From: Thiorhodovibrio litoralis
GTDB lineage: Bacteria; Pseudomonadota; Gammaproteobacteria; Chromatiales; Chromatiaceae
Direction of reading: 5' to 3'
Length of the DNA stretch: 64,000 bases
Assembly: GCF_033954455.1 (NCBI RefSeq)
Contig: NZ_CP121473.1
Span: 4,450,501 to 4,514,500 of the forward strand
The position numbers and the translations under genes are program-made. Shown here piece by piece: positions 3,717 through 10,614 of the stretch (its first letter is position 1; every line of letters starts with the position of its first letter). The notes under the pieces were generated by a model. That model was given only the letters and a program-made list of their open reading frames with translations, was not told where the DNA came from and did not search any database.

Positions 3717-5627
3717 ATGCCCCCAGCCATTGCCACATCCGGCTCAAAGCCCACCGATTCCGATCCGGGTATCTCGCGCGAGGCGCTAGTCGAGCAGCTG
3801 CACACCTGGGAGTCTATCGTCAGCCGCTCGCCCGACGCGGTCTGTATGACCGATCATCTTGGCGTGGTTGAGTATATCAATGCTGCCTTCGAGCAGGTCT
3901 TCGGCTATTCATCCCGTGAAATCCTCGGCCAATGTCTCGATGTGCTTGACCTACCCGAGCCTGATAATGCGGATTCAACGCTACTGAGCGGGCATTTCTT
4001 GCTGCCCGGGTTCGATCTTCAAGCCAGCATGCACCACACCCGCAGCGCGGGCAACTGGCAGAGCGAGGCGGTCGTGCGCCACCGTGACGGCCAAGCTGTT
4101 GCTGTGCGTGTTAGCACCCTGCTGCGCAGCTCGGAGTCCGGTCGTGCGCTCGGTCAGGTCTTTGACTTTGTCGATATCACGGAGACCAAACGCCGCGAGC
4201 GCCAGCTCGAGACACTGCGCGCCGTGGCCGAGGATCTCTCGACCCAACTGGAACTGAACGACATGGTCGAGCAGGCGCTGGATGCCGCCACCAACCTGAC
4301 CGAGACGGATTTTGCCGCCATCGCCTTTCCTTCCAAAGACGGCAGCCTGCTGCGCTATCGCTGGACTACGCCGCTAAGCAACGCCGAGACGCGCGCAACG
4401 GTCAGCGCGTCCTTCGATGCCGCGACCAGCATTGCCGGCGCCGCCCTACTCAAGGGCCATGAGACCAGCCTGGCGGACTGCCCGGCGCCGAACGCGGTGA
4501 GTGATCCGCTGTGCGCGCTCGGTGCGCGCGCTGCCCTCGCCTACCCGGTGACGATTCAAGGGCGCGCCCAGGCGGCGCTTTGCGTTGCCAGCCTCGAGCA
4601 CCCCCGCGAATTCACACCTGACTTGGTGCAACTGCTCGCGACCATCGCGCGCCAGATCGGAGTGGCCATCGACCGCGAACGTCTGATCGACGACGCACGC
4701 GCGTCTAACCGCCAGATCGATGAGATCATCCACCGCAATCCGGACGCCATCCTGATCACCGATGACAACGGCCGGGTGCGCTTCGCCAACCCCGCCGCGC
4801 AGACACTGCTTGCACGCAACGCAGAAGAACTCGAAGATTTCCCACTCGGCCTGACCTCACAAGGCAACAAAGGCGAGCTCGATGTGCACCGCGCCACCGG
4901 TGAGCTGGTTCCGGTCGAGTTGCACGCGATGGAAACCACCTGGGAAGGGCACCGCGCGCATGTCCTGACCCTGCGTGACCTGAGCGACCGCATCCAGGCC
5001 GAGAAAGAGAAACTCGCTAGCGCGGATCGCATTCACACGGCACTGGTTCAGACCATCGAGGCCATCTCCCGCACGGTCGAAACGCGCGACCCCTACACCG
5101 CCGGCCATCAGCGCCGGGTTGCCGTGCTAGGACGCGAGATGGCACAGGCCATGGGGCTCGAACCAGACGTGGTCGACGGCGTCTACATGGGCGGCACCAT
5201 TCACGACATCGGCAAGCTTTATATCCCGTCAGAAATTCTCAACCGCCCCGGCAAGCTCAATGATGTCGAGTTCATGCTGATCAAAACCCATTGCGCGGTC
5301 GGACGTGACATCATTGGCGGGATCGACTTTCCCTGGCCGCTTGCCGAGATGGTGCATCAGCATCATGAGCGCATCGATGGCACCGGCTACCCACGCGGTC
5401 TGCGTGGCGATGAGATTTTGCTGCAGTCACGCATTCTGGCCATTGCCGACGTGGTCGATGCGATGAGCTCCAGACGCCCTTATCGCGAGGCATTGGGCCT
5501 GGATGCGGCACTCGAAGAAATCGAACGCGGCTCTGGCACTCACTACGATCCCGAAGCCGTCGCTGTCTGCATCCGCCTGTTCACGCACCAGGGCCTGCGC
5601 CTGGAGGATCTTGAAGCGGCCAACTGA
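3717..5627 (+). CDS. PAS-GAF-PAS-HD-GYP protein, probable cyclic-di-GMP phosphodiesterase
   Basis: Predicted cytoplasmic phosphodiesterase that hydrolyses cyclic-di-GMP under control of sensory domains. Order over 636 aa: PAS (about 30-145), GAF (about 165-320), PAS (about 335-430) and a C-terminal HD-GYP domain (about 445-630). The catalytic metal motif HDIGK lies near residue 495, and HHERIDGTGYP, the family-defining GYP segment, near residue 548. There are no membrane segments. It is the first gene of a same-strand run that continues with a KaiB-like protein, a histidine kinase, a receiver and another KaiB-like protein. Its stop codon at 5625-5627 lies at the start of a hexanucleotide repeat. 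Signal ligand is unknown. Confidence 0.9.
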   Translation: MPPAIATSGSKPTDSDPGISREALVEQLHTWESIVSRSPDAVCMTDHLGVVEYINAAFEQVFGYSSREILGQCLDVLDLPEPDNADSTLLSGHFLLPGFDLQASMHHTRSAGNWQSEAVVRHRDGQAVAVRVSTLLRSSESGRALGQVFDFVDITETKRRERQLETLRAVAEDLSTQLELNDMVEQALDAATNLTETDFAAIAFPSKDGSLLRYRWTTPLSNAETRATVSASFDAATSIAGAALLKGHETSLADCPAPNAVSDPLCALGARAALAYPVTIQGRAQAALCVASLEHPREFTPDLVQLLATIARQIGVAIDRERLIDDARASNRQIDEIIHRNPDAILITDDNGRVRFANPAAQTLLARNAEELEDFPLGLTSQGNKGELDVHRATGELVPVELHAMETTWEGHRAHVLTLRDLSDRIQAEKEKLASADRIHTALVQTIEAISRTVETRDPYTAGHQRRVAVLGREMAQAMGLEPDVVDGVYMGGTIHDIGKLYIPSEILNRPGKLNDVEFMLIKTHCAVGRDIIGGIDFPWPLAEMVHQHHERIDGTGYPRGLRGDEILLQSRILAIADVVDAMSSRRPYREALGLDAALEEIERGSGTHYDPEAVAVCIRLFTHQGLRLEDLEAAN

Positions 5628-5673
5628 GACAGAGACAGAGACAGAGACAGAGACAGACACAGGCACAGGCACA
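5626..5673. repeat. Hexanucleotide tandem repeat (GAGACA)5 plus three degenerate units
   Basis: Five perfect GAGACA units are followed by GACACA and two GGCACA. The tract begins within the stop codon of the HD-GYP gene and fills part of the gap before the KaiB-like gene. Because the unit is six bases, copy-number changes would keep every reading frame open, so on/off phase variation is not expected. Confidence 0.9.
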
Positions 5674-5710
5674 AACAAGAACCGAATCCAAGCGCGCGAG
5701 GGCCAGACCG

Positions 5711-5977
5711 ATTTATCACCTCACCCTGATTCACTCCGGCGATTGTGACGCCACCGCTCGCGCCAGGCAGAATGTGCAAGCATTTTGCCAGCGTGTGCTG
5801 GGCGACGACTACAAACTTGAACTGGTGAACATCTTGCTGGACCCAACCAACGCGCGACAGTTGGGCATTCTGGTCACACCAACCCTGATCAAGAGCAGCC
5901 CTGCGCCAGAAACGCGCATGATTGGCGATTTTTCTGACGAAAACCGCCTCCGCCAGTGTCTCGGACTCACCAACTGA
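5711..5977 (+). CDS. KaiB-like thioredoxin-fold protein, non-canonical start
   Basis: The 88-residue product aligns by eye over its full length with the KaiB family: an N-terminal strand (IYHLTLIHSG), a helix, YKLELVNILLDP, then the hallmark LVTPTLIK and a RMIGDFSDENRL segment. It resembles the second KaiB-like protein at 9156-9428. The frame has no ATG, GTG or TTG early enough to include the first strand; the first such codon is GTG 5774, which would remove about 21 residues of the fold. ATT at 5711 has a GAGGG ribosome-binding sequence 8 nt upstream (5698-5702) and is my preferred start. A CTG at 5624, overlapping the previous stop, would add an Arg-Gln repeat tail and is less attractive. 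Partner KaiC is absent from the window. Confidence 0.72.
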   Translation: MYHLTLIHSGDCDATARARQNVQAFCQRVLGDDYKLELVNILLDPTNARQLGILVTPTLIKSSPAPETRMIGDFSDENRLRQCLGLTN

Positions 5978-6058
5978 TCCGTCTCGCTCACCACGCCGCG
6001 CGAAGCGCCGGACTCACCGCCGCTCAGCGCGAAGCTCGGTCCGACCCCTGCCAGCGCC

Positions 6059-8581
6059 ATGCGCCACCTATTCATGCACCAGCCTAAGGCGCCACCACTG
6101 CCAGACGCTTCCACCGAGCCACCTGCAACCCGCGTCAATCCGCTGCGCCTGATCGCGGTCGCCAGTCTGATTCTGCTCACCCTGAGCGGCGCCACCGCCG
6201 GCTCCCGCTGGCTCATGCAGCAGGCTCGCCTAGACGCTGAGAACCGTCTTGAGCACATCAACGACAGCCTGGTCCAAGAGCTCGACACCTGGCGCCGGGC
6301 GCAGCTAGCCGGCGTTCTGGTGCTCGGCAAGCAACCACGCCAAGCGCTGTTTCCGCTGCTTGATGACTGGTCGCGGCAGGAAATCGACGGCACCAGCTGG
6401 CTGATTGACATCGGCGGCGAGTCACCGCACCTGCTGGCCAAGTCCGGGCACGCCGAGGACTTCGGCCGCGAAACAGTGCCTTTCGACGCCGATCTCGGTG
6501 ATCGCCCCGAGCTCAAGGCCACCATGTTCATGCTGGAGCTGACCGACCTCGACGGCCGCCACGCGTTCGGCGTCTCGACCAGAGTCCCAGGCAGCAACTG
6601 GCTTGTTGTCACCACGGCACCGGTGGCGCAGCTGCTGGGTCCAACGCACCGTATCCTGATCATGATGGGGCTGATGATCGCCTCTGTCATAGTCACCCTC
6701 ATCGCCGCAATGCGCCTACTGACATTGCACAAACGCGGCCAGCATTATCTGCGCCGCTATCACAGAGAGCGCGAAAAGCGCGAGCTGCTTGAGGCGCTCA
6801 GGGAAAGCGACAGCCAGCTTCAGGTCTTTTTCAACGACGCCTTTACCGGCATGGCGGTGGCCACCAGCGAGCTGCGCTGGCAACGCGTCAATCCCGCGCT
6901 TGCCGAGCTGATGGGCACGGACACAGAAACACTGGCCGGACAGCCGTGCGTCGAGCTGTTTTGCGCCGAGGACCGCGACACCGTTGCACAACTGCTCGAG
7001 CAACTGCGCCGCGGCGAGCGCAAGGGCGCGCAGCGTCAGGTCCGACTGGTGCATGGCGAAGGGCATCTGCTGCCGGTGCGCCTGGCACTGCACGCCATCC
7101 GCGACGGTGCGCAAGCCTTCCAGTATCTGCTGGTCCAGCTTGAGGACATGCGCGATCGCCAGGAAGCGGATCAGCTCTACGACGCGCTGCTGCACACCAG
7201 TCTCGACGGTTTCTGGATCATCAACCAAGCCGGCGAGCTACTTGAAGTCAACACCGGCTATTGCCGCATGACCGGCTACCAGCGCGAAGAACTCATCGGC
7301 CAGCCAATCACCGCGATTGAGGCCAAAGAGGACGAGCGCTTGGTCCAGGCCCGCATGGCGCGCATGATTGACGGCAACCAGGAGCACTTCGAAACAGCGC
7401 ACCGACACAAGGACGGCCGACTGGTGCCGATTGAGGTCAGCACCAGCTACAGCCACCTGCTTGGCGGACGCTTCTACGCCTTCTTGCGCGACATCAGCGA
7501 GCGCAAGCGCATCCAAACCGTCCTGGACGCCGAGCGCGCGCAACTGCGCAGCCTGTTTGATGGCATCGAGTCGATCATCTACGTCGCCGATCCCGAGACC
7601 TATGAGCTGCTCTACGCCAATGCCGCCTTCACCGGATCGCTGCCGGATACGCCTATCGGCAAGCCCTGCTACCAAGTCATGCACGGGCGCACCCTCCCCT
7701 GCCCCTTCTGCACCAACCATGTGATCCGCCAGCGCAAAGGCACCCACAGCCACGTCTGGCAATTTCACCAGCAAGCGACCGGGCGCTGGTATCGCTGCGC
7801 AGACAAGCTCGTGCATTGGTCGGACGGACGCCAAGTGCGCTTTGAGATCGCCTCCGACATCACTGCGCAAAAAAACAGCGACCAGCACTCGCTGCAACTG
7901 GAAAAGCTCAGCTCGCTCGGACAGCTGACCGCCGGCCTGGCCCACGAGCTAAACAATCCGCTGATGGGTGTGATCAATGCCATCCAGTTCTGCCTGGCTG
8001 AAGATGCGAGCGATGCTGAACGCCAGGACGTGCTAAAGGATGCCGAGGAGCAAACCCGCCGCTGCATCAACATCGTGCATGAGCTGCTGGCATTTTCGCG
8101 CCAGCATAACGGTCCGGTGCATGCGTTTCGTGAGGTTGACCCCCAACCCATCATCAAGCGGGTGGTGCGTTTATTCGACTATCGTTTGAACCGGGATCAG
8201 ATCCAATTCGAACTTGAGCTCGACCCGCAACTCGAGCGCCTGCGCCTGCAGCCGGAGCGCTTCGAGCAAATGGTGGTGAATCTGCTCAGCAACGCGATCG
8301 ACGCGGTGGCGGAGCGTCCGCAGCGGCGCATCCAACTGCACTTTGCGCGGCGTGGCGAAGTGGCCGCGCTCGACCTCATCGACACCGGCGTCGGTTTGAC
8401 CGAGACGCTGCAGCGGCGCGTCTTCGAGCCATTTTTCACCACCAAGCCGCCCGGCAAGGGCACGGGGCTCGGTCTCTCCACAAGTTGGTCGATCATTGCC
8501 GATCATGGTGGTACGCTAGAGTTCGTGAGTGCGGAAGGTCAAGGCACCCGCGTCACGGCGCGCCTACCATGCCCGCCCTAA
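6059..8581 (+). CDS. Membrane PAS sensor histidine kinase of the KaiB-like locus
   Basis: Inner-membrane sensor kinase of 840 aa. Two membrane segments (about 30-50 and 199-221) flank a periplasmic sensor region. Three cytoplasmic PAS domains follow, near residues 250-365, 369-490 and 494-605. The third contains the cysteine cluster LPCPFCTNH, as in some redox- or metal-responsive PAS domains. The HisKA box has GLAHELNNP with the phospho-accepting His near 626. The ATPase domain shows the N box (NLLSNAIDA), G1 (DTGVGL) and G2 (GKGTGLGLS). It lies 81 bp after the first KaiB-like gene and 146 bp before a stand-alone receiver, its likely phosphotransfer partner. The start is uncertain between ATG 6059 and ATG 6074; neither has a good ribosome-binding site. 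Confidence 0.9.
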   Translation: MRHLFMHQPKAPPLPDASTEPPATRVNPLRLIAVASLILLTLSGATAGSRWLMQQARLDAENRLEHINDSLVQELDTWRRAQLAGVLVLGKQPRQALFPLLDDWSRQEIDGTSWLIDIGGESPHLLAKSGHAEDFGRETVPFDADLGDRPELKATMFMLELTDLDGRHAFGVSTRVPGSNWLVVTTAPVAQLLGPTHRILIMMGLMIASVIVTLIAAMRLLTLHKRGQHYLRRYHREREKRELLEALRESDSQLQVFFNDAFTGMAVATSELRWQRVNPALAELMGTDTETLAGQPCVELFCAEDRDTVAQLLEQLRRGERKGAQRQVRLVHGEGHLLPVRLALHAIRDGAQAFQYLLVQLEDMRDRQEADQLYDALLHTSLDGFWIINQAGELLEVNTGYCRMTGYQREELIGQPITAIEAKEDERLVQARMARMIDGNQEHFETAHRHKDGRLVPIEVSTSYSHLLGGRFYAFLRDISERKRIQTVLDAERAQLRSLFDGIESIIYVADPETYELLYANAAFTGSLPDTPIGKPCYQVMHGRTLPCPFCTNHVIRQRKGTHSHVWQFHQQATGRWYRCADKLVHWSDGRQVRFEIASDITAQKNSDQHSLQLEKLSSLGQLTAGLAHELNNPLMGVINAIQFCLAEDASDAERQDVLKDAEEQTRRCINIVHELLAFSRQHNGPVHAFREVDPQPIIKRVVRLFDYRLNRDQIQFELELDPQLERLRLQPERFEQMVVNLLSNAIDAVAERPQRRIQLHFARRGEVAALDLIDTGVGLTETLQRRVFEPFFTTKPPGKGTGLGLSTSWSIIADHGGTLEFVSAEGQGTRVTARLPCPP

Positions 8582-8622
8582 ACACACAAAAGCCCGCAAC
8601 CCGGCTGACTGCCGCCTGATGC

Positions 8623-8690
8623 GGACCCCCTTGATGTGGACCCCCTTGATGTTAACCACTGATTAAGAACCATTGATAAGAACCACCGGC
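8623..8690. repeat. Short tandem duplications between kinase and receiver genes
   Basis: GGACCCCCTTGATGT occurs twice in perfect tandem (8623-8637 and 8638-8652). A second imperfect repeat of about 13-14 bp built on AACCA-TGAT-AAG follows up to about 8690. They lie in the 146-bp gap before the receiver gene and could be part of its promoter or a binding-site array. Confidence 0.7.
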
Positions 8691-8727
8691 GCAAACCAGA
8701 CTCATCCTGAACCGACGCAGACGACCT

Positions 8728-9159
8728 ATGGCCAAAAAAATCCTGATCATTGACGATGACCCGGCCGTGCGTCAGGCGTTTGAGCTCGCCCTGCGGCGCA
8801 CCCCTTACGTGGTGGCGACCGCCGACTGCGGGGAAGCTGGCGCCGAGCAGGCGCTGCAGGAGGACTTCGATCTCATCTACCTGGACCTGCGCATGCCCGG
8901 CATCGACGGAGTGGAAACACTCCGACGCATCCGCGCGAAAAAACCTGATCAGCTGGTCTACATCGCAACCGCTTTTCACCGCGAGTTCTTTGATGATCTC
9001 GCCGCCGCCCGCCGCGACGGCATTGTTTTTGAACTCTTGCGCAAGCCCCTGGAGCGTCAGCAGATCATCGACATCACCCGCGCGATCCTGGGCGACGATA
9101 TTGACGACAGCTCGCCCAAGGCCGAGCCCAGCGCCGGCGATGCGACCGGGGCGCCATGA
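8728..9159 (+). CDS. Stand-alone response-regulator receiver protein
   Basis: The 143-aa protein is a single CheY-like receiver domain with a short disordered tail. The acidic pocket DDD is at residues 9-11, the phospho-acceptor is Asp53 in YLDLRMPG, a conserved Thr lies in IATAFH, and Lys lies in LLRKPLE. No DNA-binding or enzymatic output domain is attached, so it probably works by protein contact. Its stop overlaps the start of the second KaiB-like gene (ATGA at 9156-9159), so the two are translated together. The kinase immediately upstream is the natural phosphodonor. Confidence 0.93.
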   Translation: MAKKILIIDDDPAVRQAFELALRRTPYVVATADCGEAGAEQALQEDFDLIYLDLRMPGIDGVETLRRIRAKKPDQLVYIATAFHREFFDDLAAARRDGIVFELLRKPLERQQIIDITRAILGDDIDDSSPKAEPSAGDATGAP

Positions 9160-9428
9160 TCAAGCTCAAGCTTTATGTCACCGGCATGACGCCCGGCAGC
9201 CGCGCGCTGATCGCGCAGCTCGAGGAACTCATCGGCACCCTTGATGACAACTTCGACCTCGAAGTGCTCGACATCTTCGAACACCCGAACGAAGCCTATG
9301 ACGACCTGGTACAAATCACCCCCACCCTGGTTCGCAGCCTGCCTCCCCCTGTCACCCAGATCATCGGCGACCTCAGCAACCGCGAGCGCATCCTTGCCGG
9401 ACTGGCACTGAACAGCACGGCAGCATGA
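9156..9428 (+). CDS. KaiB-like thioredoxin-fold protein
   Basis: The 90-residue protein has clear KaiB-family features: LKLYVTGMTPGSRALIAQL at the N-terminus, FDLEVLDIFEHP, QITPTLVRSLPPP and QIIGDLSNRERILAGL. In cyanobacteria KaiB binds KaiC and thioredoxin-like SasA. In proteobacteria KaiB-like genes also occur with kinases and receivers, and some act outside circadian timing. Here it is coupled by ATGA to a stand-alone receiver and there is no KaiC nearby, so a role as interaction partner of the receiver or kinase is an inference. Confidence 0.92.
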   Translation: MIKLKLYVTGMTPGSRALIAQLEELIGTLDDNFDLEVLDIFEHPNEAYDDLVQITPTLVRSLPPPVTQIIGDLSNRERILAGLALNSTAA

Positions 9429-9582: not shown

Positions 9583-9611
9583 TTGACACTGCCCGCGCCC
9601 GCACCTAGCAT
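9583..9611 (+). promoter_or_regulatory. Sigma-70-type promoter for ispB
   Basis: TTGACA at 9583-9588 and TAGCAT at 9606-9611 are separated by exactly 17 bp. The predicted transcription start near 9618 lies upstream of ATG 9646, which supports that start over the upstream TTG at 9583, which is inside the -35 box. The rest of the 217-bp gap from 9429 shows nothing else recognisable. Confidence 0.7.
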
Positions 9612-9645: not shown

Positions 9646-10614
9646 ATGGATCTCTCCAGTATTCGGGCTCCTGTCCGGGACGACCTCACAGCCGTCGATG
9701 GCTTAATTCTCCGACGCCTGCAATCCGATGTAGTGCTGATCAACCAGATCGGCCACTACATTGTCGGCAGCGGCGGCAAACGCCTGCGCCCCCTGCTCGT
9801 GCTGCTCGCCGCGCGCGCCTGCGGCTACACCGGCGAGCACCACATCGACATGGCCGCCATCGTCGAGTTCATTCACACCGCCACCCTGCTGCACGACGAC
9901 GTCGTCGACGGCTCCGAACTGCGCCGCAATCGCGAAACCGCCAACGCCGTCTGGGGCAATGAAGCCAGCGTGTTGGTCGGAGATTTCCTCTACTCGCGCG
10001 CCTTCGAGATGATGGTCGATGTCGGTCAGATGCGTGTCATGGACGTGCTCGCTCACGCCACCAACCGCATCTCCGAGGGCGAAGTGTTGCAACTGCTCAA
10101 CACCCACGACCCAGACACGACAGAAGCCCGCTACATGGAAGTCATCGAGCGCAAGACCGCCACCCTGTTTGAGGCCGGCGCCCGCCTCGGCGCCGTGCTC
10201 GCAGAAACCCCGCGCGAGACCGAAGACGCGCTGGCCGCCTACGGTCTGCATCTCGGCATCGCCTTCCAACTCGTTGACGACGCCCTCGACTACGGCTCCG
10301 ACCAAGAAACCATCGGCAAAAACATCGGCGACGACCTCGCCGAGGGCAAACCCACCCTGCCCGTCATCCGCGCGATGGAAGTCGGCACCGAAGACCAACG
10401 CAACATCCTGCGCCAAGCCATCGAGACCGGCGGCCGCGACCAAATGGACCAAGTCGGCGCCACCATTGTCGCCACCGAAGCACTGGAGTATACTGTCTCG
10501 CTCGCACGGTCCCACGCGCAGTCTGCCCGAGACGCGTTAGCGATCCTGCCCGAGTCCGACAGCCGCAACTCGCTGCTCACGACGGCCGACTTCGCCGTCA
10601 GCCGCACCTACTAA
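9646..10614 (+). CDS. ispB: Octaprenyl diphosphate synthase
   Basis: Cytosolic trans-prenyltransferase that extends farnesyl diphosphate with isopentenyl diphosphate to make the ubiquinone/menaquinone side chain. The protein (322 aa) has the first aspartate-rich motif LLHDDVVD, the second motif LVDDALDY, the GGKRLRP substrate loop and KPTLPVI, all as in gammaproteobacterial IspB. The N-terminus from MDLSSIRAPV aligns with the usual IspB start, and a promoter lies just upstream. It is transcribed alone; tRNA-Pro follows 147 bp later, and that gap shows no recognisable element. Confidence 0.95.
   Translation: MDLSSIRAPVRDDLTAVDGLILRRLQSDVVLINQIGHYIVGSGGKRLRPLLVLLAARACGYTGEHHIDMAAIVEFIHTATLLHDDVVDGSELRRNRETANAVWGNEASVLVGDFLYSRAFEMMVDVGQMRVMDVLAHATNRISEGEVLQLLNTHDPDTTEARYMEVIERKTATLFEAGARLGAVLAETPRETEDALAAYGLHLGIAFQLVDDALDYGSDQETIGKNIGDDLAEGKPTLPVIRAMEVGTEDQRNILRQAIETGGRDQMDQVGATIVATEALEYTVSLARSHAQSARDALAILPESDSRNSLLTTADFAVSRTY

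Follow-up and report, generated by a model that had tools for sequence, protein, structure and literature searches.

Within a 64-kb stretch of the genome of Thiorhodovibrio litoralis (contig NZ_CP121473.1, positions 4,450,501 to 4,514,500; the window, in which all positions are counted), five genes on the plus strand encode, in this order, a predicted cyclic di-GMP (c-di-GMP) phosphodiesterase of the HD-GYP type, a KaiB-like protein (KaiB1), a membrane histidine kinase (HK), a stand-alone response regulator (RR) and a second KaiB-like protein (KaiB2) (Table 1). The host genome is a single contig of 5,466,623 bases; other genomes are designated by G numbers and the loci extracted from genomes by L numbers. 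An initial annotation had already listed five plus-strand genes in this order and had described the second KaiB-like gene as coupled to the receiver: the Pfam domains and open reading frames (ORFs) confirm the former, and the overlap of the KaiB2 start with the RR stop bears out the latter. Since other genomes show portions of this gene order, chance is excluded as an explanation of the gene set.

Table 1. Features of the five-gene module and of its 3' border
Feature	Positions	Strand	Evidence
HD-GYP, predicted c-di-GMP phosphodiesterase (PAS-GAF-PAS-HD_5)	3717-5627	+	Pfam HD_5 130.1, PAS 62.6, GAF_2 53.5 bits
(GAGACA)6 tandem repeat, HD-GYP stop to KaiB1 gap	5626-5662 (repeat stretch 5626-5673)	none	repeat search
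KaiB1, KaiB-like	5711-5977 (open frame 5615-5977, start uncertain)	+	PF07689 58.3 bits
HK, membrane histidine kinase with PAS domains	6059-8581	+	HisKA 52.9, HATPase_c 75.1, PAS_9 95.2 bits
Short tandem repeats (15 and 13 bases), HK-RR gap	8617-8686	none	repeat search
RR, stand-alone receiver of a special family with long T-to-K spacing	8728-9159	+	Response_reg 77.5 bits
KaiB2, KaiB-like	9156-9428	+	PF07689 61.4 bits; ATG shares bases with RR stop (ATGA)
Promoter-like TTGACA/TAGCAT upstream of ispB	9583-9611	+	by eye; identical motif precedes ispB in G080 and G182
ispB, 3' border of the module	9646-10614	+	polyprenyl_synt 277.5 bits

The HD_5 domain of the HD-GYP protein contains the HD and GYP motifs of such phosphodiesterases, as read in the translation. 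HK and RR have the features of a two-component pair, namely an H-box (HELNNP) and an ATPase domain in the kinase and the receiver residues D, D, T and K, read in the sequence, in RR; by eye, HK has two hydrophobic stretches. The third PAS-like region of HK contains a CPFC motif (LPCPFCTNHV), for which the kinase of G194 has CLNC (by eye), and which might function in metal binding or redox sensing.

The open frame upstream of the KaiB1 domain is devoid of ATG, GTG and TTG, and KaiB1 is therefore absent from the ORF list. Two start candidates were found by eye: ATT 5711, which is preceded by GAGG at 5698-5701, and CTG 5624, partly coinciding with the HD-GYP stop. ATT 5711 is two codons away from the second in-frame ATG (of two) in the KaiB1 orthologue of G194 and, because of this nearness and of the GAGG upstream, is the likeliest, albeit unproven, start. 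The differences between the window and G194 in first, second and third codon positions (0.44/0.25/0.70 for KaiB1 and 0.40/0.23/0.84 for KaiB2) fit coding sequence under constraint in both cases. That KaiB1 is an artefact for want of an ATG was ruled out, as its G194 orthologue has ATGs near the same place and as the two differ mainly in third positions.

Both KaiB1 and KaiB2 exceed the PF07689 cut-off of 27 bits, and both remain far below the cut-offs of the clock equivalogs TIGR02654 and PRK09301 (145.3 and 110 bits), with 36.4 and 38.7 bits for KaiB1 and 68.2 and 69.7 bits for KaiB2. It should be noted, however, that this test separates little, the kaiC-linked KaiB of the host missing them too (83.9 and 86.9 bits). 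The extracted loci contain 146 distinct KaiB domains that score at least 60 bits in our own profile; KaiC lies within about 3.5 kb of 120 of them and not of the other 26, four of which are on stretches shorter than 3 kb. (Our script profiles for KaiB, KaiC, receivers and the like were seeded from sequences of the window and of the extracted loci; curated profiles were used where Pfam is named.) In a quick tree of 141 of these KaiBs (84 columns; the four on short stretches and one in L100 left out), KaiB1 and KaiB2 each pair with their G194 orthologue, with approximate likelihood-ratio (SH-aLRT) supports of 98 and 91. The clock KaiB of the host is placed close to neither of them, many forks of the tree being unresolved. 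An origin of the two by local duplication is unsupported because of this pairing, within the little that 84 columns resolve. Of the other seven RR-linked KaiBs, five cluster loosely with two lone KaiBs (support 81), and one KaiB from G091 stands apart on a long branch.

One residue and the predicted folds also bear on the relation to KaiC. An acidic residue 91 (TeKaiB numbering), described as part of the KaiB-KaiB ring contact on KaiC (PMC6769508), is present in 84 of the 120 KaiC-linked KaiBs and in none of 11 module KaiBs (the rows being related), with G in KaiB1 and A in KaiB2. The ring-contact positions 26 and 84 are uninformative: a basic residue 26 is found in only 21 of the 120, and KaiB2 keeps E84. 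The AlphaFold models of KaiB1 and KaiB2, calculated from three-sequence alignments, are thioredoxin-like, the fold-switched order, with predicted local distance difference test (pLDDT) scores of 80 and 89, the other four models of KaiB2 having 55-62. The best solved fold matches of both are fold-switched KaiB and Legionella Lpp1115, and none of 2qke, 1r5p, 1wwj and 1vgl appears among the 50 matches listed in either fold search. The models agree, weakly, with KaiB1 and KaiB2 being held in the fold-switched state.

The genome most informative for the role of KaiC is G194, which is 99% complete, has orthologues of all five module proteins, and in which a two-domain KaiC was not found. The genes are in two loci on different contigs, one with HD-GYP-KaiB1 followed by a gene reading by eye as tsaC (L048), the other with HK-RR-KaiB2 followed by a repeated stretch and then by ispB (L089); ispB 3' of KaiB2 is common to the window and G194. 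Identities to the window proteins are 55% (HD-GYP), 52% (KaiB1), 69% (RR), 61% (KaiB2) and 79% (IspB), and for HK 52% over the C-terminal 460 residues and 30% further up.

Conservation of the five-gene order, which had been suggested as a check of the initial annotation, is partial: pieces of it recur in G194, G109 and G080, whereas the exact order with HD-GYP is present at no other locus among those examined. In G109 (L041) the order is PAS-GGDEF-EAL, KaiB, lipoprotein gene, HK, RR, KaiB. The lipoprotein (351 residues, L041:10552-11607) by eye resembles an ABC-transporter binding protein and is possibly a clue to the kind of signal sensed. HK-RR-KaiB-PAS-GGDEF-EAL is found in a Legionellaceae metagenome-assembled genome (MAG) (L130), which also has a separate kaiC-kaiB, RR-KaiB-HK-HK in G012 (L042), and a kinase piece, RR and KaiB at a contig end in G159 (L047). 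Thus the c-di-GMP enzyme of the module is an HD-GYP protein in the window and G194 and a GGDEF-EAL protein in G109 and L130. Five of nine RR-KaiB junctions overlap by 4 or 8 bases, at two the KaiB starts 4 and 13 bases on, and at two (G194, G159) the genes are at least 80 bases apart (the KaiB start of G109 in this count was read by eye from the sequence). In G091, three RR-KaiB couples and two kinases stand in a row (L040:2391-9116), as if the RR-KaiB unit had multiplied, and an HD-GYP protein 46% identical to that of the window is encoded about 9 kb off on the same contig.

The receivers of these loci belong to a recognizable family. In a profile made from five of them, complete receivers of module loci score 130-218 bits and the partial one of L042 91 bits; among ORFs outside the family, the highest score is 84 bits for those of ordinary single-receiver length, and multi-domain ORFs sum up to 169. 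A pattern TAF...F(E/Q)...RKP with a T-to-K spacing of 25 is found in 12 of the 17 distinct family members. An intact KaiB gene is next door to nine of the 17 and a remnant to one (G160). A scan of named relatives with the receiver alignment listed mostly generic receivers, the useful named loci being L129 and L130, and at 78 other receiver loci among the matches listed there was no KaiB (0/78). Family receivers without KaiB beside them include those of L129:9001-9393, L264, L266, L267 and L268, several in Thiohalocapsa-type genomes; in L264 a kinase relic lies upstream of the receiver.

The initial annotation had spoken of a locus without KaiC. This holds for the locus, in which there is no KaiC, kaiC adjoining neither KaiB1 nor KaiB2, and does not hold for the genome: at 2.74 Mb, 1.7 Mb from the module, the host has genes for a two-domain KaiC (234 + 125 bits) and a third KaiB (89 bits), after which comes a PAS-GGDEF-EAL gene. 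Absence of KaiC as a genome-wide property of the host is therefore ruled out.

The taxonomic order of the host (Chromatiales) was screened with KaiB in 210 genomes, of which 60 have a match and 54 one above the cut-off of 27 bits; all 54 were searched for KaiC with PF06745 (E up to 1e-20), the six genomes with weaker KaiB matches being outside this count, G153 among them screened. The receiver and HD-GYP searches covered 204 of the genomes versus 210 for KaiB, so that a few may be outside them. KaiC is present in 47 of the 54 and absent in seven. One of the seven, G119, has a KaiC fragment beside KaiB (L032); of the remaining six, G194 and G162 are 99% complete and G012, G158, G159 and G160 81-87%. 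The KaiB coordinates of G162 are the same as in L129, which identifies it as the uncultured Thiohalocapsa MAG of that locus. The module RR family occurs in all six, in G012 counted from the partial receiver of L042, and in six of the 47 KaiC-bearing genomes (G000, G080, G091, G109, G152, G157); the difference between 6/7 and 6/47 (Fisher 2e-4) has to be read loosely, the genomes being related and not independent. G155 has a family receiver and KaiC without a KaiB match.

KaiB without KaiC nearby is also found in other surroundings. In G728 and G730, which belong to another class of the phylum and are both 100% complete, the KaiB gene overlaps a histidine-kinase gene (L271:6637-8036; L272) and a two-domain KaiC was not found; they represent another type of KaiB without KaiC, resembling a SasA split in two. 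In G117, KaiB lies between two GGDEF-EAL genes (L100:2126-5272), kaiC missing where the similar L101 (G110) has one, and in G388 (L119:6954-8666) and G158 (L090:5512-8078) KaiB is directly followed by a GGDEF or GGDEF-EAL gene, with no KaiC in the extracted stretch.

Losses, too, are instructive. G080 has HD-GYP-HK-RR-ispB, with HD-GYP, HK and RR 68, 63 and 82% identical to those of the window, and both KaiB genes are absent at clean junctions. Because the more distant G194 has both, loss would be the simpler reading. In the congeners G182 and G183 the HD-GYP protein lacks the GAF domain (Pfam run for G182), and its gene is followed at once by ispB in G182 and by another gene in G183. The only KaiB in these two is the kaiC-linked one, the genome search found no family receiver, and such a kinase is absent beside HD-GYP, the neighbourhood to which the kinase search was limited. 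The joint absence of both KaiBs from G080 suggests that they act together, and the absence of the GAF domain along with the neighbours suggests that it is the link of HD-GYP to them, each suggestion drawing on one or two events.

Judged from the sequence comparisons, the independence of the KaiB-HK-RR-c-di-GMP gene set from KaiC appears well supported. Whether the set forms a signalling module whose KaiB-fold proteins act independently of KaiC, as partners or adaptors between HK, RR and the c-di-GMP enzyme, we consider an even matter; for the KaiBs themselves an adaptor mechanism is the likeliest reading. We infer the following binding and regulatory steps. The membrane HK would sense a signal via its periplasmic part and PAS domains and phosphorylate the lone RR. 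KaiB2, whose start overlaps the RR gene and which would be translated from the same mRNA, would bind RR or HK. KaiB1, sited with the c-di-GMP phosphodiesterase, would link the output of HK and RR to HD-GYP, perhaps via the GAF domain, and the end result would be a change in c-di-GMP. The initial annotation had likewise seen the KaiB-fold proteins as adaptors rather than clock parts; the two-component and c-di-GMP gene set and the persistence of homologues without a two-domain KaiC speak for it, the adaptor role itself being arrived at by inference only.

Several observations weigh against such a module. Seven of the 17 family receivers have no adjacent KaiB, which is thus not indispensable, and the module is patchy, G080 keeping HD-GYP, HK and RR without the two KaiBs. 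G080 does retain elsewhere a solitary KaiB from the RR-linked lineage (L044), which could act in trans, and in G157 a KaiB2-like gene and a receiver of the family sit on separate contigs; both facts tell against what the joint absences suggest. G194 splits HD-GYP-KaiB1 from HK-RR-KaiB2, so that position gives no sign of joint action there, and in G109 the extra binding-protein gene stands between KaiB and HK. Two KaiBs group in the tree with those of the clock type, namely that of L130 and the one occupying the KaiB1 position in G109, and, as one from G091 stands apart, "module KaiB" is not one clade; this G109 KaiB, which is outside the 11 counted, also keeps the acidic residue 91 (GLEL). KaiB1 of the window has no normal start codon and the host has kaiC. 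Of the six KaiC-less genomes with the RR family, four are only 81-87% complete and four are from one genus. When matches with E up to 1e-6 are admitted, a single match to part of the ATPase domain, and a distant one (E 4e-9 to 2e-15), appears in each of five of the six, which therefore may have a distant, one-domain partner; G012 has no such match even then.

The host kaiC gives rise to a rival explanation, in which KaiB1 and KaiB2 are extra output arms of KaiC that compete for its ring in trans and pass the phase of the clock to HK, RR and HD-GYP in a SasA-like manner. KaiB and SasA do compete for KaiC in cyanobacteria (PMC6769508), the thioredoxin-like state of both KaiB models is the KaiC-binding one, and six of the 12 genomes with a family receiver have both KaiB and KaiC. 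Nevertheless, we regard this explanation as unlikely, since G194 keeps all five proteins without a two-domain KaiC, module parts persist in the five other KaiC-less genomes, and the acidic residue 91 is lost in all 11 module KaiBs counted.

It is also conceivable that a former kaiC-kaiB-HK-RR cluster has lost kaiC and is eroding, its KaiBs being leftovers without a present role. The third-position bias of the differences between the window and G194 in both KaiBs, the intact open frames and conserved cores, and the RR-KaiB overlap in five of nine pairs are hard to reconcile with decay, which we hold to be quite improbable despite the losses scattered over G080, the congeners and Thiohalocapsa-type genomes, the KaiB remnant with stops in G160, the unusual start of KaiB1 in the window and the repeats that fill gaps between the module genes. 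Of similarly small probability, in our opinion, is that HD-GYP-KaiB1 and HK-RR-KaiB2 are unrelated units with separate functions that happen to lie side by side. G194 has exactly these units on different contigs, and L130 and G159 have HK-RR-KaiB without a KaiB1 gene beside it; yet the window has both together, as does G109, albeit with a different enzyme and an additional gene, and both KaiBs are missing jointly in G080.

Extending the KaiC-free signalling module to a general statement, one may tentatively propose, with rather less than even expectation, that KaiB-fold proteins are KaiC-independent RR or HK partners in c-di-GMP signalling, that the clock KaiB is one branch of a wider adaptor family, and that the RR family (TAFHREFF...FELLRKP in most members) is the dedicated partner. 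The roles of KaiB in bacteria are described as not fully understood (PMC10808063). G194 and, outside the class, G728 and G730 are systems in which the role of KaiB can be asked for without a clock and in which it can be tested whether its unusual fold serves two-component or c-di-GMP signalling. A published description of such a module was not found among the openly licensed papers listed, as judged by titles and the beginnings of abstracts.

Among known systems, KaiB1 is matched best, in sequence as in fold, by the solved structure of Legionella Lpp1115 (4kun), whose gene sits in a kai operon with kaiC, unlike those of KaiB1 and KaiB2. Lpp1115 was solved in the fold-switched state and is reported to be implicated in the stress response rather than in a circadian rhythm (PMC10808063). 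Cyanobacterial KaiB-4, an elongated KaiB that is stabilised in its fold-switched form (PMC10808063), is, like KaiB1 and KaiB2, a KaiB relative of unknown role with a thioredoxin-like fold, and 8ubh is among the fold matches of KaiB1 and KaiB2; however, it has an extra N-terminal domain, whereas KaiB1 and KaiB2 are single-domain proteins encoded among HK and RR genes. In proteobacterial KaiBC loci, kaiC-kaiB adjoins HK or GGDEF/EAL genes (PMC3164672). The host kaiC-kaiB-PAS-GGDEF-EAL at 2.74 Mb is of this type, and the module resembles it in having KaiB beside genes of a kinase or c-di-GMP enzyme, but differs in lacking kaiC, in its two distinct, divergent KaiBs and in its special-family receiver. 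In SasA-RpaA, the output of the cyanobacterial clock, the KaiB-like domain is fused to the kinase and the receiver has a DNA-binding domain, whereas in the module the genes are separate, with a stop codon between KaiB1 and HK and the KaiB coupled to a receiver without such a domain, and KaiC is lacking from the locus, as it appears to be from G194. What the two would have in common is a KaiB-fold domain serving a histidine kinase with its cognate response regulator, the SasA domain (6x61, 1t4y) being matched by the predicted folds of both KaiB1 and KaiB2.

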